Shown here one piece after another: positions 15,778-25,288 of a stretch of 25,782 nt of DNA; positions within the stretch are counted from its first letter, which is position 1, and each line of letters opens with the position of its first letter. The notes under the pieces are model-generated. The model saw only the letters and a list, made by a program, of their open reading frames with translations. It made no database searches and was not told where the DNA came from. The stretch lies in the IMG/VR virus record IMGVR_UViG_3300042939_000516, positions 1-25,782 of that record; one strand, 5' to 3'. Both the position numbers and the translations under genes were made by a program. The DNA comes from a virus.

Positions 15778-17010
15778 TCAGCTACCGGCCTCGACCAGCT
15801 TCGCCACGAAGGAGGCGTCGTGGTTCGAGACGCCGACCCGCTGGAGGCCGCGGAACTTCACCGCGTCCGACTCGAAGCCGGCGTGCTCGGAGGCCGAGAT
15901 CACAAGCCCGTTCGACTTCACCGCGACGGCGGTCGCCATCGAGAAGTCGCCGTAGAGGGCCAGCGTCCCGGCCGGCAGGCCGAGGCACTTGTAGACCGGG
16001 GCACCCATCACGACCGGGAGGACCCGATCGCCGACGGTCGTCGACTGGGAGACGACCGAGCTCTTCATGATGTGCTCCCAGCCGGCGGAGCTCACGACCC
16101 AGGCCGTGTTCATGGCCCGGCTGTCGATCTTGCCCACGAGCGAGGCGAGGTCCGCCCCGTCGTAGTCGGTGCCCGCCTCGACTTCGTTGCCAGCGTCGAT
16201 CTCGTCGACCAGGCCGTCGATGCCCTTGCCGGCATCACCCTGGAGCCAGACGGTGTCGATCTTCTTCGCGATCGCGAGACCGAACCGGTTCGCGGCGAGC
16301 TGGGCCAGGTTCACGACCGCGGCCGAGTCCTGGATCAGCTCGTTGGAGAACGAGAGGATCCGGCCCATCTTGTAGAGCGGGATCGTGACCTTCGAGGTCG
16401 TGGCCTCGTCCTCGGTCACGGCCTCGTGCTCGTCGAACCACTCGGCGTCGATCTCGCCGATCTTCGGGATCTCGAGCGTGTGGCTCGAGGTCGTGTAGAC
16501 CTGGGCGAGCTGGACGCCGACGGACTGGTAGCCCAGCACGTCGATGTACCCGCGGAAGAGCTCGGGAGAGACGAGCTCGGCACCCTCGCCGTCATAGGTC
16601 GGCGAGGTCTCGCCCATCGCCCGGGCCTCGGCGAAGTCGCCGCGAGCGATCGCCCGCAGGAACCGGCCGGCCCGGACCGCGTCCTCGGTCGTGCCGAAGC
16701 CGCGGAGCGACTTACCCGGCATGACGTGGATCGCGGGGCCCTTCCGCTTCTCGGCCTTCTCGACCGTGGCGCGGCTGTCGCTGTCGCTCGTGGCGGTCAC
16801 GGCCCGCAGCCCGGCGAGCTTGTCGTCGAGAGCCCGCTCGGCGGAGGCGAGCTTCGTCACCTCGTCGGCCCGAGCCATCCGCTCCGTCAGCCGCTCGCCG
16901 ATCTGGGTCGCCTCGGCCTCGTCGGCCGGCGTCAGGGCGCGGAGGTTCTCGATCTCGGTCGTGATCGTCGCGGCCTCGTCCTGGAGGCGCTGGAGCTTGG
17001 CGCTGGGCAT
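15778..17010 (-). CDS. Major capsid protein, HK97 family
   Basis: A 410-residue capsid protein. Residues 1 to about 75 form the coiled-coil delta (scaffold) domain (KLQRLQDEAATITTEIENL, ERLTERMARADEVTKLASAE). The HK97-fold body follows, with SPELFRGYIDVLGYQSVG, TLEIPKIGEIDAEWFDE, VTIPLYKMGRILSFSNELI, and a typical end (GLVISASEHAGFESDAVKFR, VGVSNHDASFVAKL). The start at 17010 was chosen because AAGGAAG precedes it, rather than an ATG 15 codons upstream. The delta domain is expected to be removed by the prohead protease at about residue 80-90. The gene is separated from the protease gene by nine others, which is unusual. Confidence 0.93.
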   Translation of the reverse strand: MPSAKLQRLQDEAATITTEIENLRALTPADEAEATQIGERLTERMARADEVTKLASAERALDDKLAGLRAVTATSDSDSRATVEKAEKRKGPAIHVMPGKSLRGFGTTEDAVRAGRFLRAIARGDFAEARAMGETSPTYDGEGAELVSPELFRGYIDVLGYQSVGVQLAQVYTTSSHTLEIPKIGEIDAEWFDEHEAVTEDEATTSKVTIPLYKMGRILSFSNELIQDSAAVVNLAQLAANRFGLAIAKKIDTVWLQGDAGKGIDGLVDEIDAGNEVEAGTDYDGADLASLVGKIDSRAMNTAWVVSSAGWEHIMKSSVVSQSTTVGDRVLPVVMGAPVYKCLGLPAGTLALYGDFSMATAVAVKSNGLVISASEHAGFESDAVKFRGLQRVGVSNHDASFVAKLVEAGS

Positions 17011-17111
17011 TGGTTCGCTTCCTTGCGTTCGGGTGGTGGTGAAAACCTCCCGCACGATATGGGCGACCGCCCGACCGGCGAAGTTTGGCGTACTACCGTA
17101 GGACGGTCGAC

Positions 17112-17402
17112 CTACTTGGGCTTCCCGGTGACGGCGGCCTGGATCTCGCGCTGGCCGGCCGCCAGCTCCCGCAGCGTCTCGGCCTGCTGCTCCTGGGTCC
17201 GGCCCAGGCCTTCAAGCGTCGCCGTCGTCTGGCGGAGGAAGGTCGCGTGTGACTCGACGACCGGGACGACGACCGTATGGTGTAGGGCCGTCGCCGCCTC
17301 GCGGAGGCCGAGTAGGAGGATGCAGACCATCACGACCGGGAAGCCAAACTCCCGGGCGATCCGGATCCCCACGTCGATCACGTCGCTGGTTTGCTGCGTC
17401 AC
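17112..17402 (-). CDS. Single-pass membrane protein, holin or spanin-like candidate
   Basis: A 96-residue protein with a GTG start overlapping the previous stop (GTGA). A hydrophobic helix (FGFPVVMVCILLLGL, about 18-33) is followed by a long heptad-like helix (ESHATFLRQTTATLEGLG, TQEQQAETLRELAAGQREI). One membrane anchor plus a coiled coil fits a holin, XhlA-like or spanin-like lysis accessory, or a structural membrane anchor. Position in a cassette of membrane proteins and proteases favours a lysis-related role, but no family was recognised. Confidence 0.6.
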   Translation of the reverse strand: MTQQTSDVIDVGIRIAREFGFPVVMVCILLLGLREAATALHHTVVVPVVESHATFLRQTTATLEGLGRTQEQQAETLRELAAGQREIQAAVTGKPK

Positions 17403-17704
17403 TTGTTGCTCTCCCACCACTTCCGGACCAATGCCTCGACGATCGCGGCGATCGCCCACCAGAGGATGATCGTCGTGAAGGCGAACCCGCACCGCTCGCG
17501 GTATTCGCGGCGGACCTTCTCCTCGAGGTCCAGGCGGACCAGCCGCTCTCCGTCGGTGCCGCGGCCGGCGGCGAGCAGCTCGCCGGCGGGCGGCATCTTG
17601 TCGGCGGCCACCGCGGCGATCGCGTCGGACCGCTCGCGGCCGAGGAGGGCCCGGCGGACCGGGTAGGCCGCGAGGGCCTGCCAGACGTAGTCGGCGTCGT
17701 TCAT
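17399..17704 (-). CDS. C-tail-anchored small membrane protein
   Basis: A 101-residue protein overlapping the protease stop (ATGA). The N-terminal ~65 residues are soluble and helical (DYVWQALAAYPVRRALLG, DLEEKVRREYRERCG), and residues about 72-92 form a membrane helix (FAFTTIILWWAIAAIVEALV) followed by KWWESNK. This tail-anchored layout is uncommon for holins. No family recognised. Confidence 0.6.
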   Translation of the reverse strand: MNDADYVWQALAAYPVRRALLGRERSDAIAAVAADKMPPAGELLAAGRGTDGERLVRLDLEEKVRREYRERCGFAFTTIILWWAIAAIVEALVRKWWESNK

Positions 17705-18435
17705 CGGCGGACGCATCTCCCGTCGAGGCAGGCCTTCGCCAGGACCGAGCGGATCTCGACGACGTGGCTCCCGGCCGTCAGGCCGTGCGACGATCCCCAG
17801 AGGATCCCGGCCAGCTCGCCCGACTCGGTGAAGATCGGACCGCCCGAGTCGCCCTGGCGGGCGGCCGCGCGGACCTCGACCATATGGGCGGGATGCCGGC
17901 CGGCCGGGGAGAGGAACTGGGTCACCGGGCCCGAGGCCTCGCGGTAGACGAACGGCGCGCCGCCGTAGCCGGCGATCGTCAGCCGGTCGCCGACAGCGGG
18001 GGCCTTGGCTGCGAGCTGCACCGGCGCGGCCTTGGGCGTCGGCGTCGACAGGACCGCGAGGTCGAAGGCGTCGTCGCTGGCGACGACCTTCGCGGCGGCG
18101 GTCGTGCCGTCGGGCCACCGGATCGTAATCGCGTCGCGGTGGCCGCGGACGACGTGCCAGGCCGTGAGCACGACCGCCCGGCCGCCACCGGCGTCGACCA
18201 GGACCCCGGAGCCGCAGTCCCTCGACGGCCCGGCCCCGCACTCGATCCGCGGGACCGCCGGCCTGGGGCCGCCGGCGGCGCGGGCCGGCTTGTCGGGCAC
18301 GACGCCCGAGCCATCGCAGACCGGGCAGGAGAACCGGACCGGGCCCGGCCCGACGACGCGGTCGCCGCGGCAGTTGTCGCACGGAGCGGCCGCGGCAGAG
18401 GCGGCGAGCAGGATCGCCAGGAGGATCGGTCGCAT
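17701..18435 (-). CDS. Secreted trypsin-like serine protease with CxxC zinc-finger-like N-terminus
   Basis: A 244-residue protein. Residues 1-17 form a clear signal peptide (RPILLAILLAASAAAA). The mature N-terminus has two CxxC pairs (Cys19/22 and Cys37/40, the second as CPVCDGSG), like a DnaJ-type zinc-binding unit. The S1/DegP-like protease domain has the full triad: His94 in LTAWHVV, Asp125 in AFDLAVL, and Ser197 in GDSGGP. Two further cysteines flank the end. It should act outside the cytoplasm. It starts two bases after the papain-like gene's stop and overlaps the next gene by ATGA. An exported phage-encoded trypsin-like protease in a structural operon is unusual; host-envelope degradation or virion maturation are both possible. 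Confidence 0.88.
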   Translation of the reverse strand: MRPILLAILLAASAAAAPCDNCRGDRVVGPGPVRFSCPVCDGSGVVPDKPARAAGGPRPAVPRIECGAGPSRDCGSGVLVDAGGGRAVVLTAWHVVRGHRDAITIRWPDGTTAAAKVVASDDAFDLAVLSTPTPKAAPVQLAAKAPAVGDRLTIAGYGGAPFVYREASGPVTQFLSPAGRHPAHMVEVRAAARQGDSGGPIFTESGELAGILWGSSHGLTAGSHVVEIRSVLAKACLDGRCVRR

Positions 18436-18437
18436 GG

Positions 18438-19310
18438 TCACCCGGCGGGCCGGCTCCAGTCGTCGGGGAGGGTCATGGACGCGATGGCGAACGAGCCCCG
18501 CCAGGCGGACCGGGCGGTTCGCTCGGAGTCGTAGCGGACGATGTCGTACGAGTCCGGGTACGCCATGAGTCGCTCGCCCGGGATCCACCGGGCCCAGGGC
18601 ACGGCGTGGCCGTTGCGGCCCACGCTCACGACCAGGCCGGCGAGGACGCAGCACACCGCCTGCTCGTAGGACTCGGGGAAGATCACCTCGAGCGGCCGGA
18701 ACCAGGCGGCCGTCTCCTGCCAGCCGTCGGGGAAGGCGGAGACCGGCGTCCACCGGCCGCTCGCCTGGTTCAGCCCGCCCGCGCCGGTCGTGCCGGGCAG
18801 GGCGTGTCGGAAGGCGTAGTCGTGCGGCTGGACCGTCTCGGGCAGCATCCCGCGGCGGACCGCGATCTCGAGGACCTGGCGGACGTTCGCGCCGCCCCAC
18901 TGCCGCGGGTTCGCCTCGGCGTAGACCGATAGCGGCGAGAGCCAGACCGAGCCGGCCTGGCCGCTCTCGGCGTAGCGGTAGTCGTCCGTCGGGCCGTCGG
19001 CGTAGATCACGCCGCGGGCCCGGTTGCGGGCGGCCTCGGCGTTCGCCCGCAGACTGTGGCAGGTACACTCGTGGGTCGGGTTCTGGTTCGTGAACCGGTC
19101 GAGGTAGTTCATCGCCCACGATCCGGCCGCGTCGTTCTCGCGGGCCTTCGCCTCCCAGTCTCGCGGCTCGACCCAGAGGGCCGCCGGGAACTCCCGCGAG
19201 GCGGAGCCGCAGGCGTCGCGGAGGGCGTCGGTCGTGTCCTCCGCGGCCAGCTCGGCCGGGTAGCCGTCGTGCTCGGCGGGGAACACGTCGACGAGGCGCG
19301 GGTCGATCAT
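18438..19310 (-). CDS. Probable papain-like (C1-type) cysteine peptidase
   Basis: A 290-residue protein. The segment TNQNPTHECTCHSLRANAE places Gln76 six residues before Cys82, the same spacing as the oxyanion Gln19 and nucleophile Cys25 of papain. GRNGHAVPWARW gives a candidate catalytic His235, and Asp253 (YPDSYD) lies 18 residues later, where papain has Asn175. Between them are helices and Gly/Trp-rich loops as in the fold. No signal peptide is visible. A neighbouring cysteine (Cys84) leaves the exact nucleophile uncertain. It could be inactive or a transglutaminase-like relative. The start at 19310 overlaps the previous stop and uses the same 17-base initiation sequence as the gene at 2719. 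Confidence 0.65.
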   Translation of the reverse strand: MIDPRLVDVFPAEHDGYPAELAAEDTTDALRDACGSASREFPAALWVEPRDWEAKARENDAAGSWAMNYLDRFTNQNPTHECTCHSLRANAEAARNRARGVIYADGPTDDYRYAESGQAGSVWLSPLSVYAEANPRQWGGANVRQVLEIAVRRGMLPETVQPHDYAFRHALPGTTGAGGLNQASGRWTPVSAFPDGWQETAAWFRPLEVIFPESYEQAVCCVLAGLVVSVGRNGHAVPWARWIPGERLMAYPDSYDIVRYDSERTARSAWRGSFAIASMTLPDDWSRPAG

Positions 19311-19681
19311 GGCACGGCCTCCAGCACGGCGGCCTCGGTCGCCGGGGCCGGCGTCACCCGGAGGACCGTCTGGCCGGCCAGGGCGACAACGGCCGGGAGC
19401 CCGGCCTTGCGGGCGGCCGCCAGGGCGAGCCGGTACTGGTCGGGAACGTCGCCGATCCCGTCGGTCGTGTCCGCCTCGAGCAGCGTCGCCACGATCTTCC
19501 GCTCGCGGTTCAGCCGGTTGATCGCCACGGTCACGAACGCCGGCACGGCGTGGGCGTCCTTCTCATAGACGTAGACCGCCGCGGTGGCCGGGCCCGCCGT
19601 GGTGACGTGCCGGCACGACTCGACGTGCGGGAAGCCGAAGATCAGCACCAGCCCGGCGACGACGAGGGCGAGCGGCTTCAC
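19307..19681 (-). CDS. Exported or membrane-anchored small protein
   Basis: A 124-residue protein with an N-terminal hydrophobic segment (PLALVVAGLVLIFGF) followed by a Cys in VESC, near but not matching a lipobox. The rest alternates beta strand and helix (AAVYVYEKDAHAVPAFV, YRLALAAARKAGLPAVVALA, TVLRVTP), which resembles a thioredoxin-like fold without a CxxC. Exported location is likely. Function unknown. Confidence 0.6.
   Translation of the reverse strand: MKPLALVVAGLVLIFGFPHVESCRHVTTAGPATAAVYVYEKDAHAVPAFVTVAINRLNRERKIVATLLEADTTDGIGDVPDQYRLALAAARKAGLPAVVALAGQTVLRVTPAPATEAAVLEAVP
19308..19324 (-). repeat. Shared 17-base initiation sequence, copy 2
   Basis: Identical to 2717-2733 (CTGGAGGCCGTGCCATG leftward); here it also encodes the last residues (LEAVP) of the upstream gene while serving as ribosome binding site and start of the papain-like gene. 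Confidence 0.6.
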
Positions 19682-19920
19682 GGCTTTGGGGCCTCCGGCT
19701 GGAGCAGCTCGTCGAGGAGCTTCTGGCAGACGACGACGGCCGAGGCCTTGCCCTGGTCACGGAGCCGGGCGGCGAGGTCGATCACGAGGCGGAGGTCGTC
19801 GACCGGCGTCCGGACCCGCCGGCGGCCGACGTAGGTCCGGGCTTGCTGGACGACGAGGACCAGGGCGTACCCGAGGCAGGCGACGCCGGCGGCGTATTGG
19901 ACGACTTGGGAAACGGTCAC
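19678..19920 (-). CDS. Small N-terminally anchored membrane protein
   Basis: An 80-residue protein with a GTG start at 19920 overlapping the previous stop (GTGA). An apparent longer frame upstream is the shadow of the 88-residue gene. Residues about 4-24 form a membrane helix (SQVVQYAAGVACLGYALVLV). A basic patch (RTYVGRRRVRTP) and a helix (LRLVIDLAARLRDQG) follow. No family recognised; a small holin-like or anchor role is possible. Confidence 0.6.
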   Translation of the reverse strand: MTVSQVVQYAAGVACLGYALVLVVQQARTYVGRRRVRTPVDDLRLVIDLAARLRDQGKASAVVVCQKLLDELLQPEAPKP

Positions 19921-20183
19921 GGGGTTTTCTCCATAGAGGCGACGAGCTGCACGATCCGCTGGACGAGGGCCGCGCCTTCCGGCGTCTTGAGGACGGCCGC
20001 GACGTGGCGGGCCAGGTCGTCGTCGAGCCGGCTCTCGGTCCGCGACGCCGCCCACTCGAGCGCGTCGGCGACGATCACCGACCGGGCGTTGGCGTTCGGC
20101 TCGGCCGAGTAGCGTCGCGCGTATCCGAGCAGGGGAGACCACTCGGCGAGGAGCCGGATCTGCTCGATGGTCGGGAGGGGCAT
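19917..20183 (-). CDS. Small helical hypothetical protein
   Basis: An 88-residue, probably all-helical protein (IEQIRLLAEWSPLLGYARR, ARSVIVADALEWAAS, ALVQRIVQLVASME). No membrane segment and no recognised domain. Tightly linked on both sides, two bases from the previous stop and overlapping the next start. Confidence 0.6.
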   Translation of the reverse strand: MPLPTIEQIRLLAEWSPLLGYARRYSAEPNANARSVIVADALEWAASRTESRLDDDLARHVAAVLKTPEGAALVQRIVQLVASMEKTP

Positions 20184-20184
20184 G

Positions 20185-20553
20185 TCACCGCCTCACGAGC
20201 CAGAGGAGTTGCTCGATCGCCCCGGATGCCAGGGCCAGGACGAGGGACCGCACGGCGGGCCGGGCGACGACCCAGACCGGCAGGGCCACGAGCGGGACGG
20301 CCCGGTCGGCCACCGCGTCGAAGAGGTCGCCGACCGACTGGAGGGCGAGGGCCTTCTTCTGCTCGCCGGTCATGGTCGAGACCGTGTCGAGGATCGTCAC
20401 GACCAGCCGCAGGAGGCCGACCATGAGCTCGCCGAACTCGGCCCAGGTCAGGCCGTCGGCGGTCGTGTTCCTGGCGGTGGCGACATACGCGGAGATCTTG
20501 TCGAGGAGGCCGAGGCTATTGTCGGCGGCGGCGAGCGGGACGGCGGTGATCAT
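20185..20553 (-). CDS. Helical, possibly membrane-associated protein
   Basis: A 122-residue protein. The ATG at 20553 overlaps the stop of the zinc-ribbon gene (ATGA) and follows GGAGGAGG. It has helical segments (LLDKISAYVATA, LMVGLLRLVVTILDTVSTM) and a hydrophobic C-terminal part (VPLVALPVWVVARPAVRSLV, LASGAIEQLLWLVRR) that may associate with the membrane. No family recognised. First large member of the protease/membrane cassette. Confidence 0.6.
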   Translation of the reverse strand: MITAVPLAAADNSLGLLDKISAYVATARNTTADGLTWAEFGELMVGLLRLVVTILDTVSTMTGEQKKALALQSVGDLFDAVADRAVPLVALPVWVVARPAVRSLVLALASGAIEQLLWLVRR

Positions 20554-20705
20554 TTGACCCTCCTCCAGACGTGGTTCGCTGGGACGACCTGGCGGCCCCG
20601 AGCGCGGCAGCATTGGCAGGCGACGTAGCGGACCTGGCGGTCGCCGGCCCGCTTCGACGATTCAACGCGGCAGCGGCCGCCGCACTTCGAGCAGCTAGCC
20701 GGCAT
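20550..20705 (-). CDS. Small zinc-ribbon protein
   Basis: A 51-residue protein. Two CxxC pairs, Cys5/Cys8 (CSKC) and Cys30/Cys33 (CQCC), frame a basic beta-hairpin (CRVESSKR, RQVRYVAC), as in a zinc ribbon. Small phage zinc ribbons (for example Ogr/Delta type) often regulate late transcription or bind nucleic acid, but no specific family is claimed. Its ATG at 20705 lies inside the end of the prohead protease-HAD gene (11-base overlap) and its stop overlaps the next start. Its size and overlap make it easy to miss. Confidence 0.7.
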   Translation of the reverse strand: MPASCSKCGGRCRVESSKRAGDRQVRYVACQCCRARGRQVVPANHVWRRVK

Positions 20706-21678
20706 GGATCCGCATCCTCGCGACGGCGGCCGCCGCCGCGGCGCGGACGCCGGCGAGCGACGAGACCTTGACCGCTCGCGGCTCGGGGGCCGCGGCCGGG
20801 ATCTTCTCGGGCGAGTCGTCGATCCAGATGTCGACGGAGAGACCGGCGGCCTCGGCGGCCGACCGCTTCTGCGTGTCCGGCCCGCACAGGAGGACGCCGG
20901 CGAGCTCCTCGTAGAGGTCGCCGAACGCGAGCCGCAGCTCGTGCCGGTTCGCCTCGGTGTCCTGCCGGCGGGTGATGCAGACGACGCGGTTCCCGCGGGC
21001 GGTCGCGTCGGTGACGAACGACCGCCAGAGGCCCGGGGCCGCGGTGAACGTGCCGTCGAAGTCGAGGGAGATCGTCAGACCGCGCGGCTCGGCCCGGTGC
21101 GCCACCATGCCGCGGGCCTGCCGCCAGGCGTCGAGGGATCGCGGGGCGATCGAGCTCGACGGGTAAGCCGGGCTCGTGACCGCGGAGATGTCGTAGAGGC
21201 CCGAGGCCTTGTGGACCGTGCGAATCACGTTCCCCCGCTCGTCCTCGGTCCAGTTCTCGCCGCCGTCGGCGACCGTGAACGCGAACGACGAGCCGGTGAT
21301 CGTGCGATCCTCGACCATCATGATCAGGTCGCGGCCCATGCTGGTCTGTAGCGGCTTGTGCCGGTAGGCCAGGCCGCGGGCATCCTTCGCGAGCTCGAGG
21401 CGGCCGTTCGAGGTCCGGCCCGTGACGTGGTTCGGGTCGTGATTGAACAGGAACGGCACGTCGATCTTCCCGCGCGGGTCGGTCGGCTTGCGGTCGACCA
21501 GGCCGTCGAAGGCGGTCGGGGCGAACTTCTCGCGGAATCCGCCGAGGTCGACCGAGAGCGAATCCCACGGGGGCGAGATCCCGACCAGCACGGCCTCGGC
21601 GTCGCCGTCGCGACGCTCGACCGTGATCGCGTCGGGCGTGTCGTTCGTCAGGAGGTAGCGGCGTTCGATCTGCGTCAT
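20695..21678 (-). CDS. Prohead protease (S78) fused to a HAD-superfamily domain
   Basis: A 327-residue two-domain protein. Residues 1 to about 180 are an HK97-type prohead protease: LFNHD.NHVTGRT (His80), TITGSSFAF (Ser130/131) and YDISAVTSPAYP (Asp163 region). Residues about 200-295 form a HAD phosphatase-like domain: SLDFDGTFT (Asp206 and Asp208), VVCITRR (Thr236), Lys271, and WIDDSPE (Asp287, Asp288). All four HAD motifs are present, so it may be active. The protease should cut the capsid delta domain. Fusion to a HAD domain is not part of the usual family layout. There is no stop or frameshift between the two. Met191 offers a possible internal start but has only a weak ribosome binding site. 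Confidence 0.88.
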   Translation of the reverse strand: MTQIERRYLLTNDTPDAITVERRDGDAEAVLVGISPPWDSLSVDLGGFREKFAPTAFDGLVDRKPTDPRGKIDVPFLFNHDPNHVTGRTSNGRLELAKDARGLAYRHKPLQTSMGRDLIMMVEDRTITGSSFAFTVADGGENWTEDERGNVIRTVHKASGLYDISAVTSPAYPSSSIAPRSLDAWRQARGMVAHRAEPRGLTISLDFDGTFTAAPGLWRSFVTDATARGNRVVCITRRQDTEANRHELRLAFGDLYEELAGVLLCGPDTQKRSAAEAAGLSVDIWIDDSPEKIPAAAPEPRAVKVSSLAGVRAAAAAAVARMRIHAG

Positions 21679-23228
21679 GCTTCGGGCTCCTCGTCGATCG
21701 GATCCGCGGACAGCTCGGCGACTCGCTTCCCGACGGTGAACTCCGTCGGCTCCCCGTCCTCGTAGACGCGGAGGCTCGCGGCCGGGTCCGCCTCGGTGGC
21801 GGTGATCGAGAACGGCGAGCCCTCGACGCCGAGGACGCCGTCGACCATCAGGTGCTCGATAGTCCCCTCGCCGCCGTCCCAGTAGACGTACTGGCCCTCG
21901 CGGAAGCCGCCGGCCTCGGGGACGCCGGCCCCGGGGGCCCGCTCGTTGCCGGCCGGCTCGTCCACCGGCGGCTCGCCATCGGCGACGACGGCCCCGCCTT
22001 CCGGCGCGGCCGCGTTGCCCAGCGTCGAGAAGCCGAGCTGCATGTACGTCTCGTCCGCCGCCGGGTCCTCGAGGAGCGGGAGGTCTTCCATCTCCCGCAG
22101 CTCTTGGGGCTTGAGCGCCCCCATGTTGAAGAGGGCCTGGTAGAGCTGGACGCGGCTCGCGGTGTCGGCCCGGAGAATCCCGCGGTTATCAAGGCGGGCG
22201 TATACGTCCTCGCCGTAGACCGGCTGGAGCATCATGTCGAGCGGGCCTTCCATGCGGCGGGCCCAGGGCAGGAGGCACCAGACCTGCGCCGACAGGTGCT
22301 CCTGCTCGACGTTCGACCAGCGGGCCATCTTGTGATCGCCGACCAGCGTCGACGGGACGCCCCAGGCCCGGGCGATGTCGGGGAGAATCGAGTCCCGCAG
22401 CTCCTGGTACTGGTTCGCCTCCATCGAGTTCGACTCGATCGGCTTGAGCTGGGTCTTCTTCGGGAGGACGGCGATCGACCCGCGGTTCCGAGCCCCGCCG
22501 TAGATCTCCCGGAGCTGCGCCCGGAGGGCGGTCATCGCCTCGTCGGGGATCTTCTCCTGGAGCTCCATCACCATGTCGGGCCGCGCAGAGTTCGCCCAGA
22601 ACGCGGTCGCCGCGATGTCGAGCTGACGGGCCAGGGCGATCGACGTGCCGCAGAGCTCGGAGGGAGCCATCCCGACCAGGCCGTTATCCGAGAGCCACCG
22701 CCAGTGGATCACCGGCTCGCGGATCGTCTCCCACGAGCCGGCGTCGTTCCAGAACTGGTACGAGACCGAGTAGTCGCGGTTCCGGACGACGTTCACCCGG
22801 GACGGGTGCATCGGCCGCAGCTCGGAGCAAAAGCCGCGCGGGCCGGGCATGACGCGGGCGAAGGCGTTCCCGTGGAGGGCGGTCCAGTAGGCGACGAGCT
22901 GGTAGAAGTCGTAGGCCGACTGCCAGCCGTTCGGCCGCTTCCGCAGCGTGTACGAACAAGGGAGGTCCGCGTCCTCCTTCCGGCCGCCGGGGAGCGTCCG
23001 CATCACCTGGACCGGCATGACGGCGACGGCTTGGGCGATCCACCGGACGACGGCCAGGATCGACGAGACGCGGATCGCCTCGGTCGTGCCGATGTCGGCC
23101 GGCGAGATCGTGCCGAACCCGAACGACGCGACGGGGCTCCAGACGGATCCGACGGCCCGCTTCTCGGGCGTGGTGCGGCGCGGGGCCCGCCGGCGGGGCG
23201 TGGACTTGGCGGGCGTCTTGCGGGCCAT
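21675..23228 (-). CDS. Portal protein, HK97 family, with C-terminal extension domain
   Basis: A 517-residue portal using the ATG at 23228 (a longer frame begins 16 codons upstream but lacks support). Portal features: TEAIRVSSILAVVRWIAQAV, YDFYQLVAYWTALHGNAFAR, a RQLDIAATAFWANSARPD helix, RDSILPDIARAWGVP and NVEQEHLSAQVWCLLPWARR. After the core ends (about residue 420), a linker leads into a small beta domain (QYVYWDGGEGTIEHLMVDG, then PAASLRVYEDG and VGKRVAEL), a pattern also found in other phage proteins as a KOW/tudor-like mini-domain. Its ATGA stop overlaps the protease start. The N-terminus is basic and Thr/Pro-rich. Confidence 0.92.
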   Translation of the reverse strand: MARKTPAKSTPRRRAPRRTTPEKRAVGSVWSPVASFGFGTISPADIGTTEAIRVSSILAVVRWIAQAVAVMPVQVMRTLPGGRKEDADLPCSYTLRKRPNGWQSAYDFYQLVAYWTALHGNAFARVMPGPRGFCSELRPMHPSRVNVVRNRDYSVSYQFWNDAGSWETIREPVIHWRWLSDNGLVGMAPSELCGTSIALARQLDIAATAFWANSARPDMVMELQEKIPDEAMTALRAQLREIYGGARNRGSIAVLPKKTQLKPIESNSMEANQYQELRDSILPDIARAWGVPSTLVGDHKMARWSNVEQEHLSAQVWCLLPWARRMEGPLDMMLQPVYGEDVYARLDNRGILRADTASRVQLYQALFNMGALKPQELREMEDLPLLEDPAADETYMQLGFSTLGNAAAPEGGAVVADGEPPVDEPAGNERAPGAGVPEAGGFREGQYVYWDGGEGTIEHLMVDGVLGVEGSPFSITATEADPAASLRVYEDGEPTEFTVGKRVAELSADPIDEEPEA

Positions 23229-23322
23229 CTGGGGCGTCCTGCGGGCCCGGGGCGCGGAATCCCCTGGGAACCACAAGTGTCAGACGGCGGCCCATTCCGG
23301 CGAAGTTCGCGGGCCCGTCAGA

Positions 23323-23623: not shown

Positions 23624-25288
23624 TTAGATCAGCGTGATCCGGTAGTCGTCGAGACTCCCGGCCACGTCGTCCTCGTCGGTGCTCGCGAGGGCCAGGGCGT
23701 TCACGAGCGCGGCGATCCCGTCGATCTTCTCGTTCGACTTCGCCTTGTCGGGTTTGATCATGCCCGTCGGGTCTGTGTAGACGCAGACGTTATTCGCGTT
23801 CCACGTCGCGACCGGGTTCCCGCCGGTCCGGAGCCGCTTCTCGACGACCAGGGCTTCGAGGAGCTTGCAGGACGAGTTGAGGTACGCCGTCCGCTGCGGG
23901 ATGTCCTTGACCGTGATCCCTTCGCGCTGGAGCAGCGTCTCCAGGGCCCCGGCCTGCCACGGGTCGACGCCCACCGCCTTGATCTCGTGGGCCTCGCCGT
24001 AGGCGATCAGATCGCGGGCGACGCTCTCGTGATCAAGCCGGTGGCCGTCGGTGACGGTCACCCAGCCCTCGCGGATCCAGGTGTCGTACGGGATGCCTTC
24101 GCGGACGCGGTCGGCCACGGTCTCGCGCGGGACCCAGTACTTCCACTCGACCGCGTAGCTGCCGTCCCGCTCTTTGAACACGAAGGCGGCCGCGGTCATG
24201 TCCAGGTTCGAGGCCAGGTCGACGCCGACCCAGCACGGCCGGCCGGCGAGCGGCTCGGCGGGGCCGGCGTTGCATTGGGCCCAGGCGTCGCCCTGGAACC
24301 AGCGGGCGTCGGCCTGGGCCCAGATCCCGAGCCGGTAGCGTAGGAACGACGTTCTCTTCGTCCCGCTTGTCAGGCTGTCGGCGTAGTCGTTCGCGAAGTC
24401 CTTCTCCGAGATCGTCACGCCCAGCGACGGGTTCGCGTCGCGCCAGACCTCGGGCGAGTCGACGCCCCGGGCGTCGTCCTCCTTCGCCTCGTAGATCTTC
24501 CCGAAGAAGGTCGGGTTCGCCTCGGGGCTCGCCTGGACGAGCCGGGCGTCCTGATACCACTGGTAGCCGATCCCGTTCCGCGACTCGCCGGCCGTCGAGA
24601 TCGCCACGACGAGCGGCTGGGCTCGAGCGGCTCCCGCGTAGGTCAAGGCCTGGACGAGGTCCGGCTTCCGGTGGGCGTGCAGCTCGTCGATCACGACGGC
24701 CGAGGCGTCGATGCCTTCCGCCCGCCACGAGTCCGCGGCGAGGCAGGTGTACCTCGAGGCCGTCGGCTTGTGGACGATCGTCGAGCGGGAGTCGATCACC
24801 TCGAGGGCCCTGGCGAGCTCTGGGTTCGCCCGGACGCTGGCGGCGACGGAGCGGTAGATCACGCCGGCCTGGATCCGGTCGACGGCCGCGCCGAAGACGG
24901 CGGCCCCGGGCTCGCCGTCCGCGAGCATGTGGTACAGGACCAGGGCCGCCATGAGCGACGACTTTCCGTTCTTCTTACTGACGAAGATCGCGGCCCGCCG
25001 GTAGCGGCGGAGGCCCTGGTCGTCGACCCAGCCGTAGATCGGCTCGATGATGTCGTGGATCTGCCACGGCATGAGCTTCATCGGCTTACCGGCGAACCGC
25101 CGGCCGCTCGTCATGGTCACGAACCGCTCGACGAACCTGACGACGCGGTCGGCCCGATCCTGCTCGAACGAGTAGCCGGCGACGTACTCGGGCCGCCGCT
25201 TCCACGCCGGGCCGCGAGGCTTCCGCGGCGTCGCCTTCTTAGGCTCGGCCTTCGATGAACGCTTGGAGCGTGTCTCGGACTTCGCCAC
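23624..25288 (-). CDS. terL: Terminase large subunit
   Basis: A 554-residue packaging motor. The ATPase half has an atypical Walker A (SKKNGKSS, 104-111) and Walker B VVIDELH (198-204, Asp201 and Glu202). The nuclease half has the three acidic residues expected: Asp357 in GVDLASNLD, Asp442 in VGVDPW and Asp523 in KIDGIAALVNA. Length and motifs match the HK97-like Terminase_1 type. Starts at a GTG with GGAGG six bases before and overlaps the small subunit by 50 bases. Confidence 0.94.
   Translation of the reverse strand: MAKSETRSKRSSKAEPKKATPRKPRGPAWKRRPEYVAGYSFEQDRADRVVRFVERFVTMTSGRRFAGKPMKLMPWQIHDIIEPIYGWVDDQGLRRYRRAAIFVSKKNGKSSLMAALVLYHMLADGEPGAAVFGAAVDRIQAGVIYRSVAASVRANPELARALEVIDSRSTIVHKPTASRYTCLAADSWRAEGIDASAVVIDELHAHRKPDLVQALTYAGAARAQPLVVAISTAGESRNGIGYQWYQDARLVQASPEANPTFFGKIYEAKEDDARGVDSPEVWRDANPSLGVTISEKDFANDYADSLTSGTKRTSFLRYRLGIWAQADARWFQGDAWAQCNAGPAEPLAGRPCWVGVDLASNLDMTAAAFVFKERDGSYAVEWKYWVPRETVADRVREGIPYDTWIREGWVTVTDGHRLDHESVARDLIAYGEAHEIKAVGVDPWQAGALETLLQREGITVKDIPQRTAYLNSSCKLLEALVVEKRLRTGGNPVATWNANNVCVYTDPTGMIKPDKAKSNEKIDGIAALVNALALASTDEDDVAGSLDDYRITLI

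Follow-up and report, generated by a model that had tools for sequence, protein, structure and literature searches.

The window analyzed here, a 25.8-kb uncultured virus record (IMGVR_UViG_3300042939_000516), encodes on its minus strand a 327-amino-acid fusion of a prohead protease and a HAD phosphatase-like domain. The gene runs from an ATG at 21678 to 20695 as a single open frame, and the original prediction, made from the sequence alone, had its coordinates (20695–21678) and residue numbers right. The product can be divided into an S78 prohead protease core (residues 20–181; 21136–21621), a linker with the candidate self-cleavage bonds R195↓A196 and R199↓G200 (21079–21096), a predicted capless HAD domain (residues 199–298; 20785–21084), and an Ala/Arg-rich C-terminal tail (residues 301–327; 20698–20778) that opens with a further candidate bond, R301↓A302, all on the minus strand.

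By profile, catalytic residues, and gene position, the first half is assigned as an intact S78 (HK97-type) prohead protease. PF04586 covers residues 20–181 with an E-value of 1e-32 (113.9 bits against a Pfam cut-off of 21), and TIGR01543 of NCBIfam reaches 69.4 bits, exceeding its cut-off of 59. The predicted catalytic residues H80 (21441–21439) and S131 (21288–21286) are invariant in 22 sequences, and the T4 gp21 protease is the best structural match of this half in an AlphaFold2 model of the fusion (Z 10.6). On the minus strand, a likely terminase small subunit, the terminase large subunit (23624–25288; PF20441, PF03354), the portal (21675–23276; PF04860, E=1.8e-70), and the protease-HAD gene follow one another in one head and packaging module, with the fusion gene starting inside the last few bases of the portal gene. 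The major capsid protein of HK97 type is encoded further along the same strand (15778–17055; PF05065). The protease thus shares with HK97 gp4 the core domain, the invariant His and Ser, and the portal-protease-capsid gene order, but differs in holding a HAD domain between its core and tail and in the ~3.6 kb of other genes that lie between it and the capsid gene.

The second half carries the four HAD motifs complete, as originally claimed. The motif I DxD (D206, D208), motif II T236, and motif III K271 are invariant in all 59 aligned window-type fusions, the motif IV acidic pair D287/D288 is invariant in all 57 rows reaching that region, and the catalytic residues are near-invariant across the protease-fused, portal-fused, and stand-alone forms. 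Purifying selection also acts somewhat more strongly on the HAD part than on the protease part, with a median ratio of nonsynonymous to synonymous substitution rates of 0.29 against 0.42 (Nei-Gojobori estimates). In profile searches, no Pfam HAD family matched this part of the 327-residue product; residues 201–305 matched PHROGs 4919 (E=8e-17) and 4256 (E=5e-16), both of unknown function. The two PHROGs are small phage proteins of the same sequence family, but their profiles (~126–141 positions) comprise the HAD only, and the stand-alone relatives fetched are separate, unfused genes.

Structure prediction gave the expected fold. The whole fusion was modeled with a predicted local distance difference test (pLDDT) score of 77.6, and the HAD alone, modeled with 54 diverse relatives, reached a mean pLDDT of 94.2 with a Rossmannoid HAD fold. 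The phosphatase domain of T4 polynucleotide kinase (Pnkp) was the best match both for the second half of the fusion model (Z 8.5) and for the HAD-alone model in the PDB (1rrc, 5uj0; Z 9.6 and 9.5, root-mean-square deviation 3.2–3.7 over 99–101 residues), followed by MDP-1 (Z 9.2) and a bacterial RNA-repair Pnkp (Z 8.7); all top matches were HADs. Rows no more than one Z apart were treated as ties, so the fold indicates a capless HAD phosphatase that may act on nucleic acids or on proteins. The domain is classified by modeled fold and four motifs as a capless HAD with predicted phosphatase activity. The motif order is that of the T4 enzyme, and both sequences have an Arg two residues past motif II. 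Unlike T4 Pnkp, to which its sequence similarity is barely detectable, the window HAD is fused to a head protein and lacks the kinase domain: Pfam and sequence inspection found no 5′-kinase (P-loop) domain in the 327 residues. Searches of PDB sequences with the HAD or its profile returned chance matches only.

The fusion is conserved. A scan of viral contigs found the window-type fusion in 59 loci at 58–100% identity, and a HAD-only query matched 255 loci, with the HAD in the protease frame in all 80 loci kept. Counting all fetched loci, overlapping fetches included, the protease-HAD arrangement occurs in 167 loci representing 60 distinct HAD cores. Because the same one-frame fusion recurs in many independent contigs, including one from a Planctomycetaceae metagenome-assembled genome (MAG; L158), an assembly artefact, frameshift, or chimaera is excluded, and the fusion originally proposed is real. 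Two matches lay in Planctomycetaceae MAG contigs, which could be mis-binned phage; only four of 392 Planctomycetota genomes matched, the sole fusion among them being the one already known, so no host range can be drawn from them. The protease without a HAD is present in many related phages. An internal start yielding a free HAD was considered and rejected, since conservation does not extend to the in-frame ATG at residue 191. In three relatives (L035, L037, L055), the protease halves have diverged from that of the window while the HAD halves are closely similar, which points to recombination at the domain junction. Several relatives also carry a conserved domain, YDxIDFxPPxGVREEAxRGLxWRxxxGRGGTxxGxARARDLSNG, before the protease (L062, 2832–4172; L077, 4473–5678; L071, 3690–4808).

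The HAD is attached to head proteins in other ways as well. In 45 of all fetched loci (29 distinct HAD cores), many of them obtained with a query led by portal-linked copies, it is joined in a single frame to the portal on its C-terminal side, and the protease encoded downstream is unfused. In 12 further loci (four distinct HAD cores), the order is HAD-linker-protease, as in the six contigs L062, L063, and L067–L070, and in two others (L159, L210), the HAD forms its own gene immediately downstream of the protease. In a phylogeny of 56 HADs, those that are head-linked (47 rows, including a few encoded beside the protease) formed one branch with support of 98/99, separate from stand-alone bacterial and phage HADs, and the four arrangement labels require seven changes; the tree rests on only 100 columns, and its inner forks are poorly resolved. 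Several BFVD matches to the HAD model are named XkdF or "prohead protease" (A0A6J5N6Z6, A0A6J7WLI9, A0A6J7WEB6, A0A6J7WUA4, A0A6J5NSI2, A0A6J5NAI8), which suggests, judged by name only, that fusions of the HAD with another protease family exist as well.

The position of the HAD within the fusion was clarified by the C-terminal tails. The unfused proteases of L159 and L210 close with a tail of the type LIGARAAAALARMKANG, and the window tail after the HAD reads SSLAGVRAAAAAAVARMRIHAG. Measured against composition-preserving shuffles, the fused tails resembled the unfused protease tails of L210 and L159 (mean z 3.4 and 2.6, respectively) and not the tails of separate HAD genes (mean z 0.66). Since the tail after the HAD resembles that of the unfused protease, an insertion of the HAD between the core of the protease and its native C-terminal tail is the most likely origin of the fusion, and simple C-terminal appending of the HAD is rejected. 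The original prediction was thus right that the HAD is fused in frame to the S78 domain, but the HAD does not simply follow the protease. In HK97, encapsidation probably depends on the region after the protease core, a subject that Duda and colleagues reportedly addressed in 2013.

The capsid protein of HK97 is cut between Lys103 and Ser104 during maturation. The part removed is a 103-residue scaffold domain (PMC10275583), and the window capsid protein likewise has an N-terminal scaffold and an aligned cleavage column, with predicted cleavage at an R↓A bond near 16621 (EAR↓AMGE). The HK97 Lys103↓Ser104 bond aligns with an invariant Arg in the capsid proteins of all 60 relatives, followed by Ala in 51 of them and otherwise by Thr, Val, or Ser; among the rows displayed, this held without exception under two MAFFT settings, and under a third a single row did not fit. 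Immediately upstream of the HAD core, Arg or Lys plus a small residue is also present in 25 of 26 distinct portal linkers (shuffle mean 1.3) and in 19 of 34 protease linkers (shuffle mean 2.4). In the window, R195↓A196 and R199↓G200 before the HAD and R301↓A302 after it are the candidate bonds.

The HAD also occurs as a gene of its own. All 80 loci fetched with a stand-alone query encoded it in a small open reading frame (ORF), with neighbours such as ribonucleotide reductase, thymidylate synthase, RNA ligase, metallophosphoesterase, helicase, and clamp loader, or terminase, portal, and the head closure protein Hc3. In isolates such as Bas88 and pSal-SNUABM-01, the gene lies among those of DNA polymerase, ligase, and exonuclease. 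Some P22-like phages have a separate small HAD gene beside a P22-type portal gene with overlapping ends (L276, L288, and L328, where the portal was checked with Pfam; also L269, L290, and L292), and in L288 and L328 it is located directly between terminase and portal.

Some head-fused HADs also share polypeptides with putative effector domains. In L185 (2–1714), the portal-HAD is followed by an ADP-ribosyltransferase (PF03496, E=3e-11), and in L187 (4182–5297), an Ntox46 domain is fused to the HAD. Weak LPD1 polyvalent-associated matches, under the curated cut-off, lie behind the portal-HAD in L248 (1653–4640) and L250, together with a metallopeptidase-like HEFGHH stretch spotted by eye, and TUDOR-like domains follow the HAD in the portal-HAD proteins of L203 and L229. 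Enzyme domains on portal, MuF, or assemblin-like peptidase proteins have been predicted to be packaged and injected as virion-delivered effectors, and domain fusion to portals is a hallmark of such polyvalent proteins (Iyer et al., 2017; PMC5512222). An effector-type enzyme domain joined to a head or packaging protein is likewise present in the window protease-HAD, the portal-HAD-ADP-ribosyltransferase, and the Ntox46-HAD. The assemblin-like peptidase is, however, always C-terminal in polyvalent proteins, in contrast to the N-terminal protease of the window, and a text search of that paper found no mention of a phosphatase or HAD domain (PMC5512222). In SPN3US, interior cargo, the portal, and the protease's own C-terminal propeptide are cleaved (PMC10052503). 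The internal head proteins of SPN3US and T4 are comparable in that interior proteins and the protease are trimmed at maturation and cargo is ejected into the host (PMC10052503), but the part removed there is mainly an N-terminal propeptide, whereas in the present phages the protease or portal would itself serve as carrier. Enzyme delivery on head proteins is thus already known; in the open-access literature searched, no report was found of a prohead protease or portal bearing a HAD, of its exchange between the two, or of junction sites matching the capsid cleavage column.

Among the remaining features of the window, accessory genes on the minus strand (17112–20613, ~3.6 kb) separate the prohead protease from the capsid gene. 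The median gap between protease and capsid genes is 2.8 kb in protease-HAD phages, compared with ~200 bases in portal-HAD or HAD-protease phages. The accessory genes include a trypsin-like protease gene (17701–18396; PF13365, E=3e-22) whose product may begin with a zinc-binding CxxC, a 290-amino-acid ORF (18438–19310) without a Pfam match, and a hydrophobic 142-amino-acid ORF (20185–20613) that may be holin-like, all on the minus strand. By eye, the C-terminal end of the window portal (21675–21900, minus) looks like the TUDOR-like stretches of the portal-HAD proteins in L077 and L203. A tRNA search of the window found none.

Portal and protease both face the interior of HK97-type proheads. HK97 prohead I contains ~60 proteases and 12 portals (PMC12749128). 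We propose, at roughly even confidence, that interior-facing proteins load the HAD into the prohead, where it is clipped free at maturation and packaged, and that it is a phosphatase of nucleotides or nucleic-acid ends, likely acting in the new host. The fusion protease would enter the prohead during assembly and bring the HAD along, a task that would fall to the interior end of the portal in relatives. Once activated, the protease would cut the capsid scaffold domain after an arginine and probably also similar sites beside the HAD, setting it free inside the head. The freed HAD would be packaged with the DNA, possibly injected, and act on nucleic-acid ends or nucleotides, substrates suggested by its fold and gene neighbours, most likely in the newly infected cell. 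The fusion of one HAD clade to the C-side of the protease, its N-side, and the C-terminal end of the portal argues for this proposal, as do the intact motifs under purifying selection, the T4 Pnkp-like fold, the effector domains in the same polypeptides, and the nucleic-acid and nucleotide enzymes encoded beside stand-alone relatives. The two interior-facing carriers and cleavage-like junction sites lend indirect support to the earlier claim that the HAD enters the capsid with its carrier or is released there. The accompanying statement that a phosphatase there has no obvious role was too strong, because the family otherwise lies among nucleic-acid enzymes or packaging genes and its head-fused members occur with virion-delivered effector domains, so that a packaged-enzyme role has precedent.

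Several points weigh against this proposal. What the data show is the fusion, its conservation, the fold with intact motifs, the two carriers, and the motif at the junctions, whereas the presence of the HAD in the virion, its release, retention, and injection, and its substrate are inferred. The motif is absent directly before the HAD in 15 of the 34 protease fusions, and the junction motif of the window is R↓G, which is unseen in capsid proteins, where the Arg is followed by Ala, Thr, Val, or Ser. Since, in addition, the linker shuffles ignore shared ancestry, the case for a maturation-type cleavage site next to the HAD is suggestive in the window and stronger in the portal fusions. Several HAD families score within 1–2 Z of T4 Pnkp, the sequence comparison with T4 PseT/Pnkp is weak (hhalign E=0.13) though the motifs align, and P22-like relatives encode the HAD separately, without a fused carrier. 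Finally, prohead protease fragments and propeptides generally leave the head (PMC10052503), so a freed 12-kDa HAD may be lost.

That loss would suit a HAD that acts on DNA at the portal and terminase during assembly, in end clean-up or quality control, and is then discarded rather than delivered. This is the strongest of the alternatives, albeit an unlikely one: many relatives have the HAD at the portal, and it is encoded between terminase and portal or beside Hc3 in some P22-like phages, but terminase cuts are expected to give 3′-OH ends, for which a 3′-phosphatase is not obviously needed, the head-fused HADs share polypeptides with effector domains, and many stand-alone relatives lie in nucleotide-metabolism regions. 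Those stand-alone relatives, as in Bas88 and pSal-SNUABM-01 among DNA metabolism genes, would rather suit an enzyme working in the host cytoplasm within unassembled fusion protein, its head location being incidental, and fusion of neighbouring genes is common in compact genomes. We consider this still less probable, as one clade switches among three layouts, each of which joins the HAD to an interior-facing head protein, the junctions carry a cleavage-like motif, and no conserved internal start would provide free HAD. A non-catalytic role of the HAD fold in protease dimerisation, timing, or scaffold binding, compatible with its place between core and tail and with the loss of activity known in HAD folds, is very improbable given the near-invariant catalytic residues in all three forms and the many related phages that have the same protease without a HAD.

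Prohead proteases are usually viewed as short-lived, self-destroying assembly tools. A stronger version of the packaged-phosphatase proposal, which we advance only tentatively, is a cargo-loading system in which a phosphatase cassette flanked by maturation-protease sites moves between protease and portal, enters the prohead with them, is freed by the same protease that matures the capsid, and is injected to repair DNA or RNA ends or destroy defence nucleotides. If so, the maturation protease would be both the vehicle and the release switch for its own cargo. The presence of a conserved enzyme domain on the protease and on the portal points to a general means by which small HK97-type phages that lack dedicated internal proteins load enzymes into the head. 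The finding also gives a testable, Arg↓Ala-like cleavage rule for the protease of an uncultured phage group and offers a naturally occurring template for packing enzymes into capsids.
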